DNA from: an uncultured Lacinutrix sp.
GTDB lineage: Bacteria > Bacteroidota > Bacteroidia > Flavobacteriales > Flavobacteriaceae
Direction: 5' to 3'
DNA: 64,000 bases
NCBI RefSeq assembly: GCF_947500325.1
Contig: NZ_CANMRQ010000002.1
Location: 124,001 to 188,000 of the forward strand
Position numbers and translations under genes: made by a program. Below, in pieces: positions 1 to 11,344 of this stretch (positions are counted from its first letter, which is position 1; every line of letters begins with the position of its first letter). The notes under the pieces are model-generated. The model saw nothing but the letters and a program-made list of their open reading frames with translations, did no database searches and had not been told where the DNA came from.

Positions 1-2610
1 AGCAGTACCGCCAGTTCCATTTACCATAGCATAATCAGATTGACTAAAGTTGTTTTGAGAGTTTCCATTATTATTATCGGCTGGTGCGTTTTGATGAGAC
101 CATAAATATAAAGCACCCTCAAGAGTACCTGTGGGATTCGTTGAGGCGTCGTATGAGTTTTCAGAAAGAAAATCTGCTACAGATATTGCAGAAGGATAAG
201 GGTTGCCTATAAAATTCCAGTTTTTATCGTTAGTTTCTGTATCGTTTCTATAAATTGTTACTGGAGTAACACCATTATTAAACGCTCCAGAAAACGTATG
301 TGTAACACCAGATCCAGCAAATGAAGTAATTGATAAGGTGGCAGCATAGCCTATTCCTGGTTGTAATATCTCACTACCAGCAAGCCATAACCAATCGTTA
401 CCATTGTCATCTTCGTCATCATATACTCCATTAACAAGTACATTGTCATTATTCATTTCAGCAGCACTATCTCTAAAGTTTTCAGCTTGAAATCTAAAAC
501 GTCTACTGGCAGCTGCTGGAGATAAAGCACCTCCAACAGTTTCACCAATAACAGGAGAGCTCCAAAAGGTATACTCTAACCAATCTTGAGCAGGAGCTGT
601 TATTTTTGTAACTGTAGACGAAGCTCCAGTGCTATTTGTAAAAGTTGCACTATCATTATTTTGAACAAATGCTCCACTGGTTTCCACAGTTAAAGTACCA
701 CTATTAGTTACGTTGTTCTCAACTTCTATAAAGTTGTTATTTGTTACTGTTACAGTATAAGAGCTGTTAATTATTAAACTACAAGCGCTAAAATCACCAT
801 TTGTAGAAGTATTATAATCCCCATCAATTTCAGCTAAAGTTGTTAAATTTGGAGCGCCATTAGACCATGTAGTACCATTCCAAACTGTATTTTGCATAGT
901 TACTTGCGCAGCGTTTGATGCTATTGCGCATAGTCCTGTCTCGGTGACTTCACAGTAAAACTGATAACCATCTAAATTATAGCCATCAATTGATAAGCTG
1001 GTGGTAGTTTCACCAACTACTATGCTTGGACTAAATGCAGCAGCTGTTACGTCTAACCATCCAGTAGAAGTGCCATCATTATATTTCCATTGGTAAGATA
1101 AAGCGCCAGCATTTCCTGCTGTAGCAGAAATACTTGTAGAAAAAGAATTGCAATTATCAACATCTAGAGGTTGTGTGTCTATTGTTGGAGATGGAGTACT
1201 GGTAATTGCAAAACCAAAACAATCTTCATCACCATCAAAACTCCAATCTGCTAAAGCAAAAGTTGTAGATGGAGCTGTTGCCGTATTTGCTCTTGTAAAA
1301 ACATAACCAAGATTAAAACCTACACCTGGAGTAGTATGATTTTGCCAAACATCATGAGCTGTAGAACCATTAACTAAAACAACACGATCTTCATCATTTA
1401 GACCGCCGCCAGAAAAAGACAAATCTGGTGTGATTGTAGCGCAACTAGAGCATGAAGCACCAGAACTTAATATAATCATAGTAGTGCTACCAGCACTTAT
1501 AGTTCCTGTTAATGCCATGCTTAAATTAAACCCAGTAGTGGGAACTGCAGAGCCTAAAGTAAAATTATTATCGATACCTAAAGTATATGTGGATAAATCA
1601 ATATCTGTTGCTGTAGGGTTTAAGAGTTCTATATAATGACATGAATCTGTTTGATCATCATAAACACCTGAAATAAGTAAATCTGTAAAACTGGCTGAAA
1701 TACCTCCAGATCCACAATCATCATCAAGAAAAAGAAAACTTGTTGCGGAATCTAATCCACATGCAGATTCGGTAACAGTTATGGTTCCAGTTGAAGCTCC
1801 AACTGGAACTTCAGCTATAAGAGTTGTACTGTCAACGAAAGTAACAGTTCCTGCTGTTCCGTTAAAATCAACTGTACTAGTTGCAGTAAAACCAGAACCT
1901 GTTATTGTAACTTGAGTTAAACCTGGGCCAGATATAGGAGAAAAACCTGTAATAGTGTGAGTAGGTGTGCAGCCACCACAATCTGATATTGTAAAAGGAC
2001 CACCAACTGTTTGGTTTACGGTATTACTACCTGTCCAATTCCCAGAGTTATTTATTGATGCTAAAATGGCAGCGGTTGTTCCTGAAAAAGTTCCAGTGTA
2101 AGCAGTGTTATCTATTTCAGATAAAGAAACGGCATTTAAGCCATCTGTTAAACCTGCTGGTAAATTACCTGCGGCAGCACTTCCCCAAGTATCTGGGGCA
2201 GCACCATCATTATCTAAAGCAGCTAGATATGTAGGTGTGGCGGTAGTACCTTGATAAGCTAAAAGGGAATCGCCATCACCATTAAAGTTTAAATCGTTTG
2301 TTTCTGTAACATTTCCAGCGCTAGCACTTGGTGTAGTGGTTATTGTAATAATTGTACCACATGAGATACCACCTGTAGGTGAAGTCCAAGATATGGTACC
2401 TTCGCCTCCAGTAAGAGTGTCTTCTTCATTATCTGTAAAGTGAATAACTTCTCCTACGGCTATATCTGTTAAAGCTACAAATGAAAAATCATCTGTACCA
2501 TCAGCATTATATTGTACTATGGCAATATCACCGGCAGATAGTTGTGCATTACTTTTTAGGCACGCACACAAGAGTACTATTAAAAATAGTAAATATTTTT
2601 TATAAATCAT
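1..2610 (-). CDS. Large secreted multidomain surface protein with IPT/TIG and lamin-tail domains (3' end beyond window)
   Basis: This reading frame stays open from an ATG at 2610 to the first base of the window (870 codons), so the C-terminus is missing. Residues 1-22 are a hydrophobic export signal ending near SNAQ; the C-A-C stretch inside it could also be read as a weak lipobox. Residues ~23-210 match the N-terminal module of the two paralogs downstream (starting L-S-A-G-D-I-A-I). An IPT/TIG-like segment (~220-290) and a lamin-tail-like domain (~305-470, with YIELLNPT) follow, then an Ig-like stretch (~475-570). These three inserts are absent from the paralogs. From ~577 onward it again matches the shared C-terminal region (VWNGTTWSNG... 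through GTGGTAGG). By analogy with the paralogs it should end in a T9SS type A sorting tail. A structural, adhesive or cell-surface role is inferred; no catalytic motif was seen. Confidence 0.85.
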   Translation of the reverse strand, partial: MIYKKYLLFLIVLLCACLKSNAQLSAGDIAIVQYNADGTDDFSFVALTDIAVGEVIHFTDNEEDTLTGGEGTISWTSPTGGISCGTIITITTTPSASAGNVTETNDLNFNGDGDSLLAYQGTTATPTYLAALDNDGAAPDTWGSAAAGNLPAGLTDGLNAVSLSEIDNTAYTGTFSGTTAAILASINNSGNWTGSNTVNQTVGGPFTISDCGGCTPTHTITGFSPISGPGLTQVTITGSGFTATSTVDFNGTAGTVTFVDSTTLIAEVPVGASTGTITVTESACGLDSATSFLFLDDDCGSGGISASFTDLLISGVYDDQTDSCHYIELLNPTATDIDLSTYTLGIDNNFTLGSAVPTTGFNLSMALTGTISAGSTTMIILSSGASCSSCATITPDLSFSGGGLNDEDRVVLVNGSTAHDVWQNHTTPGVGFNLGYVFTRANTATAPSTTFALADWSFDGDEDCFGFAITSTPSPTIDTQPLDVDNCNSFSTSISATAGNAGALSYQWKYNDGTSTGWLDVTAAAFSPSIVVGETTTSLSIDGYNLDGYQFYCEVTETGLCAIASNAAQVTMQNTVWNGTTWSNGAPNLTTLAEIDGDYNTSTNGDFSACSLIINSSYTVTVTNNNFIEVENNVTNSGTLTVETSGAFVQNNDSATFTNSTGASSTVTKITAPAQDWLEYTFWSSPVIGETVGGALSPAAASRRFRFQAENFRDSAAEMNNDNVLVNGVYDDEDDNGNDWLWLAGSEILQPGIGYAATLSITSFAGSGVTHTFSGAFNNGVTPVTIYRNDTETNDKNWNFIGNPYPSAISVADFLSENSYDASTNPTGTLEGALYLWSHQNAPADNNNGNSQNNFSQSDYAMVNGTGGTA

Positions 2611-2659
2611 AAGGGAATGATTTTTGCTATTAATCAACGCCTTAAAGATAGAGTAATAA

Positions 2660-2725
2660 TCGATTAAAGTATTATTTTTTCGACGTAACGCGTCTTGATT
2701 TTCGATGTAATACATTATATATCGA
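2660..2725 (-). promoter_or_regulatory. Four phased TCGA boxes upstream of the first secreted gene
   Basis: The 166-bp gap upstream of the gene starting at 2610 holds TCGA cores at 2660, 2680, 2702 and 2722. The steps are 20, 22 and 20 bp, about two helical turns each. Several are followed by A- or T-rich tracts. The regular phasing suggests a binding array for a dimeric or tandem-binding regulator. Which regulator is not known. Confidence 0.4.
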
Positions 2726-5266: not shown

Positions 5267-5379
5267 AATTAAGGGGCATTTTAGAGTCTAATAAATCGGG
5301 AGGAGTTGAATGATTTATAGATTAAATATTTGTGCTATCTACACTAGATAGCCTAAATTATATATAATAGTGAAGAAAA

Positions 5380-5425
5380 TGATACTAAAAACCCTTAAAA
5401 GAAATAAGGTTTTCCCTTTAAATTA
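5380..5425 (+). promoter_or_regulatory. Hairpin in the recX upstream region
   Basis: Upstream of recX, AAAACCCTT pairs with AAGGTTTT across a short A-rich loop with one unpaired base, followed by a T/C-rich run. The decayed copy near 8610-8640 keeps the stem with altered bases (AATCCTTA/TAAGGATT). It could be a terminator or an upstream regulatory structure. Because the promoter box of recX lies downstream of it, it is probably not in the recX mRNA. Confidence 0.35.
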
Positions 5426-5431
5426 ATAGCT

Positions 5432-5439
5432 TATTTTTG
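5432..5439 (+). promoter_or_regulatory. recX -7 box (TATTTTTG)
   Basis: The octamer TATTTTTG fits the Bacteroidota -7 consensus TAnnTTTG exactly. Only four bases (AAGT) separate it from the recX ATG at 5444. With a start site about 4-7 nt downstream of the box, the mRNA would begin at or next to the ATG. Confidence 0.55.
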
Positions 5440-5443
5440 AAGT

Positions 5444-5920
5444 ATGTATCAAAATAATAAAACCTATACTGTAGATCAAGCTATAAAAAAAATGGAGCAT
5501 TATTGCGCTTACCAAGAGCGTTGTCATCAAGAAGTAAGGCAAAAGTTAAAAAGGATGAGTATGATACCAGAAGCGGTAGATGTTATTATAGTACATCTTT
5601 TGGAACACAATTACCTTAATGAAGAGCGTTTTGCTAAAATGTATGTAAGAGGAAAGTTTAATATTAAAAAATGGGGTCGCCGTCGTTTAACACTTGAATT
5701 AAAGAAAAAAGAAATTTCTAAATTTAATATAGAGCAAGCTCATAAGGAGATATCTGAAGAAGAGTATATAAAAACGCTTAATGATTTAGCTGAAAAAAGA
5801 GCCGATTTAATTCGCGAAGTTAATACAATTAAAAAAAAGAAGAAACTTGTAGACTACCTATTATATCGTGGTTGGGAACCACATTTAGTTTACGATAAAG
5901 TAAATAAACTTTTAAGCTAA
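5444..5920 (+). CDS. recX: Regulatory protein RecX
   Basis: The protein has 158 residues, a normal length for RecX, and is all-helical with the family's three repeated three-helix motifs. It opens with a helix containing the YCAYQERCHQEVRQKL segment, and a central stretch (LNEERFAKMYVRGKF and KKWGRRRL) matches the conserved RecX core. RecX binds RecA filaments and limits their activity in recombination and the SOS response. The gene sits alone on the plus strand between two minus-strand paralogs. It converges on the next gene with only two bases between stop codons. The start is fixed by the promoter box four bases upstream and by conservation. A degenerate copy of its 5' end lies at 8649-8740. 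Confidence 0.93.
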   Translation: MYQNNKTYTVDQAIKKMEHYCAYQERCHQEVRQKLKRMSMIPEAVDVIIVHLLEHNYLNEERFAKMYVRGKFNIKKWGRRRLTLELKKKEISKFNIEQAHKEISEEEYIKTLNDLAEKRADLIREVNTIKKKKKLVDYLLYRGWEPHLVYDKVNKLLS

Positions 5921-5922
5921 GT

Positions 5923-8433
5923 TTACTTTTTAATAAATTTTTTAGAAAAAACTTTTCCTTTAGATAATGTAATTTGAGCGATATAAGGCGCAGAACTTAG
6001 GTTTGATAAATTTAAAATTTCTGAGCTTTGACTTCCATAGAACTCATATAATTTTTGACCTAATACATTTATTATTCTAATATTTTTTATAGTTGTCGAG
6101 TTTGGAACAGTAAACTTAATATTATTATTTTGAAGCTCAATTATTGATATATTATTCGAAGTAATTGAATCATCCACAATTAGAGTATCATTTCTAAAGA
6201 CTATTTCAAAACGATCCTTAAACTCACCATTATTAGATGAGAAATTATAGTTTGAACTACTTAGGTTGTGAATTACATTATTATAATTATCTTTTAATAA
6301 AATGTTGTTATTATTAAAAAAATCACCTTCAAAATGAGAAATTGAAATCGTATAAATAACAGGGTTTGTAATAGTGGTATATAATCCTATAGGAATGACT
6401 TCATTAAGTGTTAAGCTTTCTGGAGCTTTACCTTGTATAGCATAATTAGAATCACTGTTTTCTATAGTAAAAAATAAGAATGTATTATTACCAATAGATC
6501 TATTTCTAGTCGCATCATAAAAAGCACCATCATAACTATTTGTAGCTCCATTTATATAACCAATTAATATCTGACTGGATACTCCCGTGTCAGAACTTAA
6601 ATAAAGCCACAATTTATTAGCTTCATTAGTCGAGTTAGAGGTTCTAAAAAACTGATTATTATTACCAGTATTTCTCATAGAGTTGTTAAAAGTAACGATA
6701 CCTTCTGTAATTGTATCCCCATCACCATTAGTTGAAGACCCTGTGCTGCTTCCCATGTTATGATATTCAACGAAAAAACCTTGACCAGAAGGAATATAAG
6801 GATTGGGTTCATCTAAAGCATCAACGATACCATCTCCATTATTATCACCACCAGCAGTACCGCCAATTCCGTTTACCATTGCATAATCAGACTGATTAAA
6901 ATTATAAAAAGAGTTGCCATTATTGTTACTTGCAGGTGGGTTTTCATGCGACCATAAATATAAGGCACCATCAAGAGTTCCTGTTGGATTAGTTGAAGCG
7001 TTATATGTGTTTTCAGAAAGAAAATCTGCTACAGATATTGCCGAAGGATATGGGTTACCTATAAAGTTCCAGTTTTTATCATTGGTTTCTGTATCATTTC
7101 TATAAATGGTTACTGGAATAACTCCATTATTAAACTCCCCAGAAAAGGTATGTGCAATTTGACTTCCTGGTCCAGTAAATGATGTTGTAGATAAAGTTGC
7201 AGCATATCCTATTCCAGGTTGCATGATTTCACTACCAGCTAACCATAACCAATCATTTCCGTTATCATCTTCATCATCGTAAAAACCATTAACGAGCACA
7301 TTGTCATTATTGGTCTCGGCAGCGCTATCTCTAAAGTTTTCGGCTTGAAATCTAAAACGCCTACCTGTAGCTGCTGGTGATAACGCACTTCCAATAGTTT
7401 CACTAGAAACTGGAGAACTCCAATAAGTATATTCTAACCAGTCTTCAGCTGGAGCTGTTATTTTTGTTACTGTAGATGTCCCTGCTACATTTGTGAAAGA
7501 TGAGTTATTATTATTTTGAACGAATGCTCCATTAGTTTTAACTATTATTGTTTCATTATTAGTTACGTCATTTTCAACTTCTATATAGTTGTTATTTTCC
7601 ACAGTGACCGTATAAGTATCATTTACAATTAAACTACAAGCACTAAAATCACCATGAATTGATGTATTATAATCACCATTAATTTCTACCGAAGTTCTTG
7701 TATCTGGAACTCCATTAGACCATGAAGAACCATTCCAGACAGTTGGAGCCAAACAAAAATTATATGTACATATACCTCCTAAAGCCCCGGAAACAGGCGC
7801 GTTAGTAAAAAACCAATTATTTGTGATATCTGCAATTTGAGTCTGTACTTCAGCAGCTAAGCCTTCTACTAATACTGGAGAGCAAATAAAAACACCATTA
7901 TCAATCTCTCCCATATAAATGGCATTTACAGTATCTGTAAGACCAGTTGGCAATGCAGAAGTACTTGAGGTTACTGCATTGCTCCATCCTCCATTTGCAT
8001 TATCCATATGAATGGCATGAATAAATGTTGGGCTGGTATCTAATCCTTGATAAACCAATATTTGATCTCCAAGAGTAGATAAATCAAAATCTTGAGTTTC
8101 TACTACTGTACCTTGATTAGCACTAAAAACCCCAGCAGTATCTGTTAATTCTATTTCTTCACCAGCCAATAGATTTGTGGTGGCAGTCCATGTTAATGTA
8201 CCATCTCTTGTTGGGTCATCTCTAAATAGATTAGAAGGTAAAATCCAGCCTCTATCTGTGAATTTAATGACTGTTCCTGTGTCAATATCTCTAAAACAAA
8301 TAAATAGTACTCTATCTGGATCGTCACAAGCAAATCCGGTAATAGCAATATCGCCTGCAGAAAGAATCGTTTGTCCGTACCCAAATCCTATAGAAAAGAG
8401 TAGCGTAATTGAAAGTAGGTTAATGGCTTTCAT
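5923..8433 (-). CDS. Secreted surface protein with T9SS sorting tail (paralog B)
   Basis: This 836-residue paralog has the same layout as the gene at 2777: a signal peptide ending GFGYG before Q21, an AGDIAITG module, a divergent N-terminal ~230 residues, then a long region almost identical to paralog A at the protein level. The tail (ISIIELQNN... LGQKLYEF... KKFIKK) is a T9SS type A sorting domain. Between paralogs A and B the DNA of the shared region differs at many third codon positions while the amino acids stay the same, so the shared region is under purifying selection. The upstream region retains a recX remnant from the duplication. Function is unknown; a surface role is inferred. Confidence 0.85.
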   Translation of the reverse strand: MKAINLLSITLLFSIGFGYGQTILSAGDIAITGFACDDPDRVLFICFRDIDTGTVIKFTDRGWILPSNLFRDDPTRDGTLTWTATTNLLAGEEIELTDTAGVFSANQGTVVETQDFDLSTLGDQILVYQGLDTSPTFIHAIHMDNANGGWSNAVTSSTSALPTGLTDTVNAIYMGEIDNGVFICSPVLVEGLAAEVQTQIADITNNWFFTNAPVSGALGGICTYNFCLAPTVWNGSSWSNGVPDTRTSVEINGDYNTSIHGDFSACSLIVNDTYTVTVENNNYIEVENDVTNNETIIVKTNGAFVQNNNNSSFTNVAGTSTVTKITAPAEDWLEYTYWSSPVSSETIGSALSPAATGRRFRFQAENFRDSAAETNNDNVLVNGFYDDEDDNGNDWLWLAGSEIMQPGIGYAATLSTTSFTGPGSQIAHTFSGEFNNGVIPVTIYRNDTETNDKNWNFIGNPYPSAISVADFLSENTYNASTNPTGTLDGALYLWSHENPPASNNNGNSFYNFNQSDYAMVNGIGGTAGGDNNGDGIVDALDEPNPYIPSGQGFFVEYHNMGSSTGSSTNGDGDTITEGIVTFNNSMRNTGNNNQFFRTSNSTNEANKLWLYLSSDTGVSSQILIGYINGATNSYDGAFYDATRNRSIGNNTFLFFTIENSDSNYAIQGKAPESLTLNEVIPIGLYTTITNPVIYTISISHFEGDFFNNNNILLKDNYNNVIHNLSSSNYNFSSNNGEFKDRFEIVFRNDTLIVDDSITSNNISIIELQNNNIKFTVPNSTTIKNIRIINVLGQKLYEFYGSQSSEILNLSNLSSAPYIAQITLSKGKVFSKKFIKK

Positions 8434-8648
8434 ATGTAGGGGGCTTTTTACAAATGTAGATAATTTAAATTAATGATTTTAGATAAAAGCGTGTTTTTTT
8501 AAATTAAATAGTTGATTTTGTAGTGGTTAATAATTAATTGTGTTAGTTAAATAGGTAGCTAAACTATATATAATAGAGAAAAAACCTACACTTAAAATCC
8601 TTATAATAAATAAGGATTCTCCTTTTAATTAAATAGATTGTTTTAAGT
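8434..8648. other. Intergenic region upstream of paralog B
   Basis: The 363-bp gap 8434-8796 has no intact gene. Its first part holds the promoter region of paralog B, and from about 8564 it aligns with the recX upstream region at about 5358-5443, including a TATATAATAG stretch and the hairpin. It leads directly into the recX remnant. The last bases (8741-8796) show nothing recognisable. Confidence 0.6.
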
Positions 8649-8740
8649 GTGTATCAAAATAATAAAACGTGAACTATAGATCTAGCTATAAAAAATAAAG
8701 ATATTATTGTCTAGCTTTTGAATTAAAGATAAAATAAATT
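8649..8740 (+). pseudogene. Decayed 5' fragment of recX
   Basis: The sequence from 8649 aligns with the start of recX at 5444: TATCAAAATAATAAAAC is identical, and the following GAT-C-AGCTATAAAAAA block also aligns. The start codon has become GTG, a TGA appears at codon 8 and a TAG about codon 22. After about 20 codons the match jumps to the TTGAATTAAAGA segment near 5692 of recX, so an internal deletion of roughly 170-200 bp is likely. The upstream region also aligns with the recX promoter region, but the TATTTTTG box is degraded. It is a leftover of tandem duplication and not a functional gene. Confidence 0.75.
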
Positions 8741-8796
8741 GATTATCTTCTATATTCTATTAGTAATCATACTTAGTTTTAGTATAAAGACATTGA

Positions 8797-9285
8797 TTAT
8801 AAGTTAAAAACTGCCCCTATGTTTCCAACAAATTGATTGTGTATGGTTTGATCTAATCTTAGGCTTTTAGATTCGTATTTTGCTAAAGTAGTTCCAACTT
8901 CTGCAAAGACTCCAAAACCAGAAGAGAAAAAGTAACGTGCACCTAAGTGGCCTCCAAAATTTTTCAGCCCCAAACTTAAGCCTGGATAAACATCAAAATC
9001 GTCACTAACATTTATAATGCTTCCTAGATTTGCATTAAACCTTGCTCTAATATCATAGCGGTCAACAAAATCTGCATTAGGTACACTTGTATTTAATGCA
9101 TAAGCAGTTATAACGCCTACCGAAATGTTTTCACCCAAGCCATAATCATAACTAAGACTTAATCCAGAAGCGTTTTCTTGTAAATTAGCTCCAATAGAAA
9201 TTTTTTGATCTCCTTTGCCATTGAAAGCTTGTCCATAACTTAATAAAGTAGAACAAAATGCTACTAATATTATTATTTTTTTCAT
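8797..9285 (-). CDS. Small secreted or outer-membrane beta-strand-rich protein
   Basis: The protein has 162 residues with a signal peptide (residues 1-19, cleavage before Q19/A20). The mature part has alternating hydrophobic strands and many glycines (ISIGANLQ, LSLSYDYGLGENISVG, LGARYFFSSGFGVFAEVG) and ends in a strand finishing N-L. This resembles a small outer-membrane beta-barrel of about eight strands. It resembles uncharacterised flavobacterial families (possibly DUF6646), but the family assignment is from memory and uncertain. It starts four bases after the stop of the JmjC-like gene, so the two are probably co-transcribed. Confidence 0.7.
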   Translation of the reverse strand: MKKIIILVAFCSTLLSYGQAFNGKGDQKISIGANLQENASGLSLSYDYGLGENISVGVITAYALNTSVPNADFVDRYDIRARFNANLGSIINVSDDFDVYPGLSLGLKNFGGHLGARYFFSSGFGVFAEVGTTLAKYESKSLRLDQTIHNQFVGNIGAVFNL

Positions 9286-10215: not shown

Positions 10216-11310
10216 TTATTTAACAGCTTTTGCTTGTTGTTTGGCTGTCTCGTTACGCTCAATTTTATGCTCAGGTCTAGACCATTTGGGTTTTTCTCCT
10301 AAGGCTTCAAATTGAGAATCTTGCGCTTCTACCGTTTCAGGTTGCATTTTTTTAATGAAAGGTTTTTGTGGATTTAATCCTAATAATTCAAACATTTTCA
10401 TGTCTTCATTTACATCTGGATTAGGTGTTGTTAATAGTTTGTCTCCAGCAAAAATAGAATTTGCTCCTGCAAAGAAACACATAGCTTGACCTTCTCGACT
10501 CATTTCTGTTCTACCAGCGCTTAAACGCACTTGTGTTTCTGGCATGATTATTCTTGTTGTAGCTACCATTCGTATCATATCCCATATTGACACAGGTTTT
10601 TCTTCTGCTAAAGGCGTACCTTCAACGGCTACTAGAGCATTAATAGGTACAGATTCAGGTTGTGGGTTTAAAGTAGATAGTGCGACTAGCATTCCTGCTC
10701 TATCTTCTACTTTTTCTCCCATACCAATAATACCACCAGAACAAACTGTTACATTGGTTTTACGAACGTTGTCTATAGTTTCTAATCGGTCTTCAAAACC
10801 ACGAGTAGATATAACTTCTTTATAATATTCTTCAGAAGAATCTAAATTGTGATTATAGGCATATAAACCAGCTTCAGCAAGACGTTGTGCTTGGTTTTCT
10901 GTAATCATACCTAAAGTACAACAGACTTCCATATCCAGTTTATTAATGGTTCTAACCATTTCTAAAACTTGATCAAATTCTTCGCCGTCTTTTACATTAC
11001 GCCATGCTGCTCCCATACAAACACGAGAACTTCCAGAAGATTTTGCACGTAATGCTTGTGCTTTTACTTGTTGAACAGACATTAAATCGTTGCCTTCAAT
11101 ATCTGTATGATATCTTGCAGCTTGTGGACAGTAACCACAATCTTCTGGGCAACCACCAGTTTTAATAGATAATAATGTACTTACTTGTACTGTATTTGGA
11201 TCATGATGCTTACGATGAATTGTAGCAGCATCATATAATAATTCCATTAATGGTTTATTGTAAATATCTAGTATTTGTTCTTTTGTCCAATTGTGTTTTA
11301 TCTCGCTCAT
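10216..11310 (-). CDS. bioB: Biotin synthase
   Basis: This 364-residue radical SAM enzyme inserts sulfur into dethiobiotin, the last step of biotin synthesis. The radical SAM cluster cysteines are C54, C58 and C61 in CPEDCGYCPQ. The family motifs YNHNLDSS and the late FFAGANSIFAGDKLLTTPNP are present, with the second [2Fe-2S] ligands expected among the C-V-C and C-C-T-L segments. It has a ~30-residue lysine/glutamate-rich C-terminal extension. The gene is separated from the main biotin operon (bioF/bioD/bioA, 16371-19767) by about 5 kb. It has its own TATTTTTG box 25 bases upstream. Confidence 0.97.
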   Translation of the reverse strand: MSEIKHNWTKEQILDIYNKPLMELLYDAATIHRKHHDPNTVQVSTLLSIKTGGCPEDCGYCPQAARYHTDIEGNDLMSVQQVKAQALRAKSSGSSRVCMGAAWRNVKDGEEFDQVLEMVRTINKLDMEVCCTLGMITENQAQRLAEAGLYAYNHNLDSSEEYYKEVISTRGFEDRLETIDNVRKTNVTVCSGGIIGMGEKVEDRAGMLVALSTLNPQPESVPINALVAVEGTPLAEEKPVSIWDMIRMVATTRIIMPETQVRLSAGRTEMSREGQAMCFFAGANSIFAGDKLLTTPNPDVNEDMKMFELLGLNPQKPFIKKMQPETVEAQDSQFEALGEKPKWSRPEHKIERNETAKQQAKAVK

Positions 11311-11335
11311 AAAAAATCTGTCTCTTTATTGGGTT

Positions 11336-11343
11336 CAAAAATA
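11336..11343 (-). promoter_or_regulatory. bioB -7 box (TATTTTTG)
   Basis: On the minus strand the octamer TATTTTTG matches TAnnTTTG exactly and lies 25 nt from the bioB ATG. It sits just beyond the stop codon of the preceding membrane-protein gene, so bioB can be transcribed on its own. Confidence 0.5.
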
Positions 11344-11344
11344 G

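Follow-up and report, generated by a model that had tools for sequence, protein, structure and literature searches.

Why should a locus with several secreted genes of one family hold a complete recX gene between two of them and, beyond the last, a piece of DNA that again resembles the beginning of recX? The locus lies in a stretch of 64,000 nucleotides (the window; G000:C2:124001-188000), and its gene order is porZ (PF21544), recO and a TonB receptor gene (left of the window, L038), followed by the secreted genes A and B, recX, secreted gene C, the recX-like piece, a DUF6646 gene, a cupin-8 gene and a biotin-synthase-like gene with Radical_SAM and BATS domains (Pfam), which we take to be bioB (Table 1).

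Table 1. Features of the window that bear on the history of recX and its secreted neighbours.
Feature	Position	Strand	Evidence
Secreted gene A, 5' part in the window	1-2715	-	TIGR04183, 28.7 bits (cut-off 23)
Secreted gene B, 829 aa	2777-5266	-	ORF; TIGR04183, 26.9 bits (cut-off 23)
B-side spacer, outside the duplicated block	5267-5322		Local score 21-24 against the C-side spacer
recX-side spacer, duplicated	5323-5443	+	79% identity to 8531-8648
recX, intact, 158 aa	5444-5920	+	Pfam domains, RecX structures
Secreted gene C, 836 aa	5923-8433	-	ORF; TIGR04183, 26.5 bits (cut-off 23)
recX relic: spacer and first ~60 bases of recX	8531-8709	+	144/178 identical to 5323-5505
recX relic: short internal piece	8718-8740	+	Matches 5694-5716
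DUF6646 gene	8797-9285	-	PF20351, 144.8 bits

The TIGR04183 C-terminal sorting domain exceeds the NCBIfam cut-off in A, B and C, which makes all three predicted T9SS cargo. Gene A extends beyond the left edge of the window and encodes 1215 aa as a whole (L038:13068-16715); its C-terminal part is 79% identical to gene C. Genes B and C carry T9SS type A sorting tails, for which the Pfam model PF18962 stays under its cut-off of 27 (18.5 for B, 20 for C), and outside these tails domain searches found no LRR or other named domain in either. Gene B is divergent from recX, and gene C has its stop 2 bases past that of recX. The identity of the intact recX rests on RecX_HTH2 and RecX_HTH3, which exceed their Pfam cut-offs (RecX_HTH1 falls 0.5 bit short), and on matches to solved RecX chains (E 2.5e-8 to 1.2e-5).

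A sequence-only reading had proposed that the region from about 8564 to 8740 aligns with the recX upstream region and the recX 5' end, then jumps to a segment near 5692, and that it carries GTG for ATG as well as in-frame stops. Local alignment of 5267-5920 with 8434-8796 bears this out in all but the starting point: the match begins further upstream, at 8531, and pairs 5323-5505 with 8531-8709 at a score of 159, far above those of 1000 dinucleotide shuffles (mean 26.8, maximum 47), with 93/117 positions identical in the spacer part and 51/61 in recX codons. After a gap, the jump is found between 5694-5716 and 8718-8740 (score 36, reached by 0/1000 shuffles), and an independent repeat search recovers the same blocks (D4, D6, D10). 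The former reading frame now runs VYQNNKT*TIDLAIKNKDIIV*, and its openness has been destroyed by the GTG start, a stop at codon 8, further stops, a frameshift and large deletions, which have removed the ~190 recX bases that once separated the two pieces and almost everything 3' of the second. The remaining 56 bases up to the DUF6646 gene (8741-8796) match recX loosely at most (permissive whole-tail scoring, 4/1000 shuffles as high). These alignments confirm 8531-8740 as a recX relic, i.e., a putative recX pseudogene, in which the opening codons and a small internal fragment survive and which is predicted to be unable to make a RecX protein. A protein search of the genome returned no recX besides the intact one, even at E<=1.

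The parent of the relic can be named. The relic scores 159 against the recX region of its own genome and at most 41 against those of 11 same-genus relatives, its best match thus being the intact recX of the same genome. The spacer tells the same story: in the genome its sole strong second match is the relic (E=2.4e-15; next best 1.7e-4), and positions 5323-5416 have no counterpart in the 11 same-genus relatives save a 10-base chance match, their similarity to the window starting at 5417 or later. Since spacer and relic match their own recX and not these relatives, the recX duplication postdates the split from them; which relatives are nearest to the window differs between two marker trees (G009/G004 versus G010/G011). 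Just 5' of the recX start (5417-5443), a TTATTTTTG box is common to several same-genus relatives and broken in the relic. It resembles what we take to be the Bacteroidetes -7 promoter box, and the recX mRNA might be nearly leaderless.

Comparison with relatives indicates which of the two copies stands where recX normally stands. Among 20 relatives, recX is directly followed by DUF6646, its usual convergent neighbor, in 16 and by cupin-8 in 2, the remaining two having a 608-base gap before cupin-8 (L054) or a secreted gene in between (L047). The relic has DUF6646 on one side and a divergent secreted gene on the other, which is where recX lies in relatives; thus, the relic and not the working recX occupies the usual place. 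The secreted genes themselves come and go, as two same-genus loci have none there (L041, L042) and a third only an 80-residue tail (L048). In L181 (G141), a secreted gene, recX and DUF6646 are followed by a second secreted gene and then cupin-8, as if the copied unit had included DUF6646.

The sequence-only reading had suggested searching for strains with two intact recX copies. Among 299 genomes of the family, recX is matched in 290 and matched twice in 4, and none has a clear second intact copy: the second matches are a relic (G107), a 30-residue 3' piece (G236), and two weak matches elsewhere, one interrupted by a stop at 25% identity (G257) and one not counted as a second recX (G134; 24% identity over residues 24-153 of a 384-residue frame, E 9.8e-4). 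In the 60-genome set, the only genome matched twice (G005) owes its second match to the frameshifted tail of its single recX. This same-genus locus (L049) has its sole recX frameshifted after about residue 133, either by true decay or by sequencing error.

Is the relic in the window an isolated case? A survey of 201 recX loci (the window, 20 relatives, 80 from genome contigs, and 60 and 40 further genome loci) was reduced to 186 distinct loci by dropping 15 duplicates in recX sequence, L213 replacing L191 as the longer view. At least one secreted gene of the A/B/C family is in view in 114 of these, exactly one in 89, so that the single-gene loci which the sequence-only reading suggested looking for do occur, and two or more in 25; all 143 family secreted genes at recX loci are oriented opposite to recX. 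A recX relic beside a secreted gene was found in 6/186 loci (the window, L047, L105 from Gaetbulibacter sp. S0825, L155, L195 and L191/L213), all of them among the 25 multi-gene loci, as compared with 0/161 others (Fisher p=3.3e-6) or with the 89 one-gene loci (p=6.6e-5). In the five other genomes, too, the relic adjoins an additional secreted-gene copy of this kind, and every relic has the orientation of recX, against that of the secreted genes. The lost copy is the outer one in the window and L047 and the inner one in L105, L155, L195 and L191/L213. A secreted gene lies beyond recX in 7 loci, five of which (L100, L180, L181, L188, L194) are without a relic.

These relics were identified by several tests. 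When the DNA of each locus's own recX was compared with 1336 intergenic pieces, the scores were 108 in L212, 70 in the window, 68 in L195, 67 in L213 and L105, 65 in L155 and 40 in L216, against a maximum of 34 for the minus strand of the 1336 pieces, which served as control. In a gap-by-gap test of 28 gaps, six exceeded all 300 shuffles under both scorings (the window, L047, L105, L155, L191, L195). A tblastn search of all pieces at E 0.01 finds L105, L213, L047, L049 and L212 and misses the relics of the window, L155 and L195, which are seen at the DNA level. The relic of L047 (G001, same genus) lies within the control range of the plain recX DNA test (29) and is recognized by tblastn (E 3e-7; reversed control 0), a copied terminator and a flank test (0/300 shuffles); its minus strand is also raised (z 3.7) because the copied terminator is palindromic. 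L047 is not alone in having a short, old relic.

Several candidates were not counted. L040 is borderline (strict score 34, 1/300 shuffles), the L188 gap passes the strict test only because it starts inside the 3' flank of its own recX, the L049 match is the frameshifted tail mentioned above, and L216 is a weak match with no family secreted gene in view. The same lack of an A/B/C family gene in view applies to L212, whose match is a repeat of the recX 3' end: at L212:10145-11501 (G236), 64 bases of the recX 3' region are directly repeated (60/64 identical) on either side of an insert of ~880 bases with a lipoprotein-like ORF (10841-11344), as if a gene had been inserted into the 3' end of recX. 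The second gap of the three-gene array in L213 (L213:7994-8379; G107) was likewise left out, recX itself being unmatched there (21/500 shuffles); it shares 53 bases with the first relic gap (score 69, shuffle maximum 49) and is possibly an older relic. An apparent tie of relics to locus-specific, clade-forming pairs of secreted genes (at first 5/7 versus 1/16) weakened when a larger tree with more loci gave 3/6 versus 3/19 (p=0.12).

On a 181-tip tree built from recX, bioB, cupin-8, the TonB receptor and recO, the six relic carriers are scattered and need 6 changes, which makes six separate events the simplest count; deep shared events followed by many losses are an alternative that the tree allows. 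With relics confined to multi-gene loci and scattered on the tree, co-duplication of a secreted gene and recX looks recurrent across the family, and the pattern suggests that rows of surface-protein genes sometimes grow by copying recX with its neighbor and then losing the spare recX. The 19 of 25 multi-gene arrays in which no relic was found imply that other routes of growth exist or that relics vanish. The broader proposition, on which the balance appears to us about even, is that in Flavobacteriaceae the divergent pair of a T9SS-exported gene and recX would be a recurrent unit, and that arrays at porZ-recO-recX loci would have grown at least six times across recX, the second recX being lost from either end and the relics recording that growth.

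How the copies in the window arose is a more specific question. Here, we consider it probable that 8531-8740 is the decayed outer recX left when a locus of secreted gene(s), recX and DUF6646 was duplicated in tandem across recX, a reading that includes a two-step history. The sequence-only reading had taken a secreted gene and its divergent recX as one duplicated unit; as a unit, this pairing agrees with the relics of the five other genomes, and as a single step it does not suit the window. At 237 4-fold degenerate sites, B and C are 56% identical (random ~38%; distance ~0.77), whereas the relic block retains 81% identity (random ~33%; distance ~0.23; Fisher p=1.1e-7). Since a decayed relic should evolve no slower than silent sites, the recX copy appears to postdate the divergence of B and C and thus, contrary to what had been proposed, does not date the expansion of the array. 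Additionally, homology ends sharply at 5323: the B-side spacer 5267-5322 resembles 8434-8530 only in the first bases at the start codon and scores 21-24 where ~59 would be expected, a level reached by 44 or 48 of 1000 shuffles, so that the continuous homology from recX into the 5' flank of the secreted gene, which a joint copy implies, is missing.

A one-step duplication, with B and C as the two copies and recX and the relic as their partners, is rather unlikely on these grounds, as it predicts neither the age gap nor the edge at 5323. It matches the gene order exactly, a tree of the C-terminal 460 residues joins B and C as sisters, and the first quarters of B and C are 51% identical, as compared with only 42% and 40% with A; it survives only if gene conversion held the recX copies together or a divergent allele took the place of one secreted gene. 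Either of these would account for the age gap and the edge, as would a duplication of C together with recX followed by loss of a C copy, or a copy of recX only; the window is better explained by two steps, or by a copy of recX alone, than by one step. At other loci, the last quarters of secreted gene pairs are 100% (L191) and 99% (L078) identical in DNA, with first quarters at 61% and 48%, which points to gene conversion where the sorting tail is encoded.

Copying of the spacer and recX alone into the B-C junction, with decay of the original recX beside DUF6646, would amount to a relocation. The duplicated block does start at 5323 and not at gene B, and recX does end 2 bases before the gene C stop; however, a precise and correctly oriented insertion between two genes would be demanded, and the decay of the inner recX in 4/6 relic loci fits duplication of arrays better than relocation, which makes this course quite doubtful. 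Far less credible is that the segment is a retained element (for instance the promoter or RNA leader of gene C) whose likeness to the recX leader is coincidental. Preservation of the spacer part is good, but the homology enters recX codons that now contain stops, the spacer is absent from relatives, and although spacer and copy each allow a small hairpin, shuffled sequences fold as well as either of them (z 0.00 and -1.54). Nor does a mobile element suit the spacer, which is no high-copy repeat (among 40 own-genome matches listed, only itself and the relic are strong). Chance similarity, which the AT-richness of the region might invite, is of negligible probability given the shuffle scores.

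For the tandem duplication across recX, the following course is plausible. In relatives, recX and a secreted gene share one short divergent spacer, so a duplication across recX carries both. In this genome, the copied unit would have been gene C with recX, after which crossing-over at the 5' flanks, in which B and C are similar, may have removed one C copy; the older gene B would thereby have come to lie next to the inner recX. The working recX now lies one gene inward, between B and C. Such a flank crossover as second step would explain both the age gap and the sharp edge. RecX proteins restrain RecA, and a second recX would thus be at best redundant; the spare copy may decay for that reason or because a double dose is harmful, with deletions erasing it from either end of an array. 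The recurrence of relics is read directly from the DNA, and the selective reason for the loss is what we infer from it. Likewise, we infer the two-step history of the window instead of seeing it directly; a copy of just the spacer and recX would have left an identical trace.

That a passenger gene is lost (nonfunctionalisation) after a tandem duplication is well known, and the present case follows this course in that a redundant recX decays while the neighboring secreted genes are kept. It differs from the usual course in that the same passenger is involved repeatedly at one locus in several lineages. In terms of the RecX regulator (PF02631, PF21981, PF21982), the intact gene at 5444-5920 holds the domains and the relic at 8531-8740 keeps fragments only. 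A search of the open-licence literature found no report of recX relics or of recX as a recurrent passenger in such arrays. The relic is a physical trace of the growth of a surface-protein array, in which a single-copy housekeeping neighbor was swept along and left its remains. As recX otherwise occurs once per genome, relics mark separate duplication events that can be ordered and compared between lineages, and the pattern suggests that recX, once doubled, does not stay so. In the same bacterial family, Flavobacterium psychrophilum is reported to have 17 tandem LRR proteins exported by T9SS (PMC9723704), an array comparable in its tandem secreted genes with sorting tails and different in its LRRs, which were not found in B and C; that array is not said to include recX. 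In Elizabethkingia, recX is flanked by duplicated capsule genes (PMC4961963). The genes there serve capsule export and the available extract mentions no recX relic, and the feature common to both cases is a recX gene standing between two copies of its neighbors.
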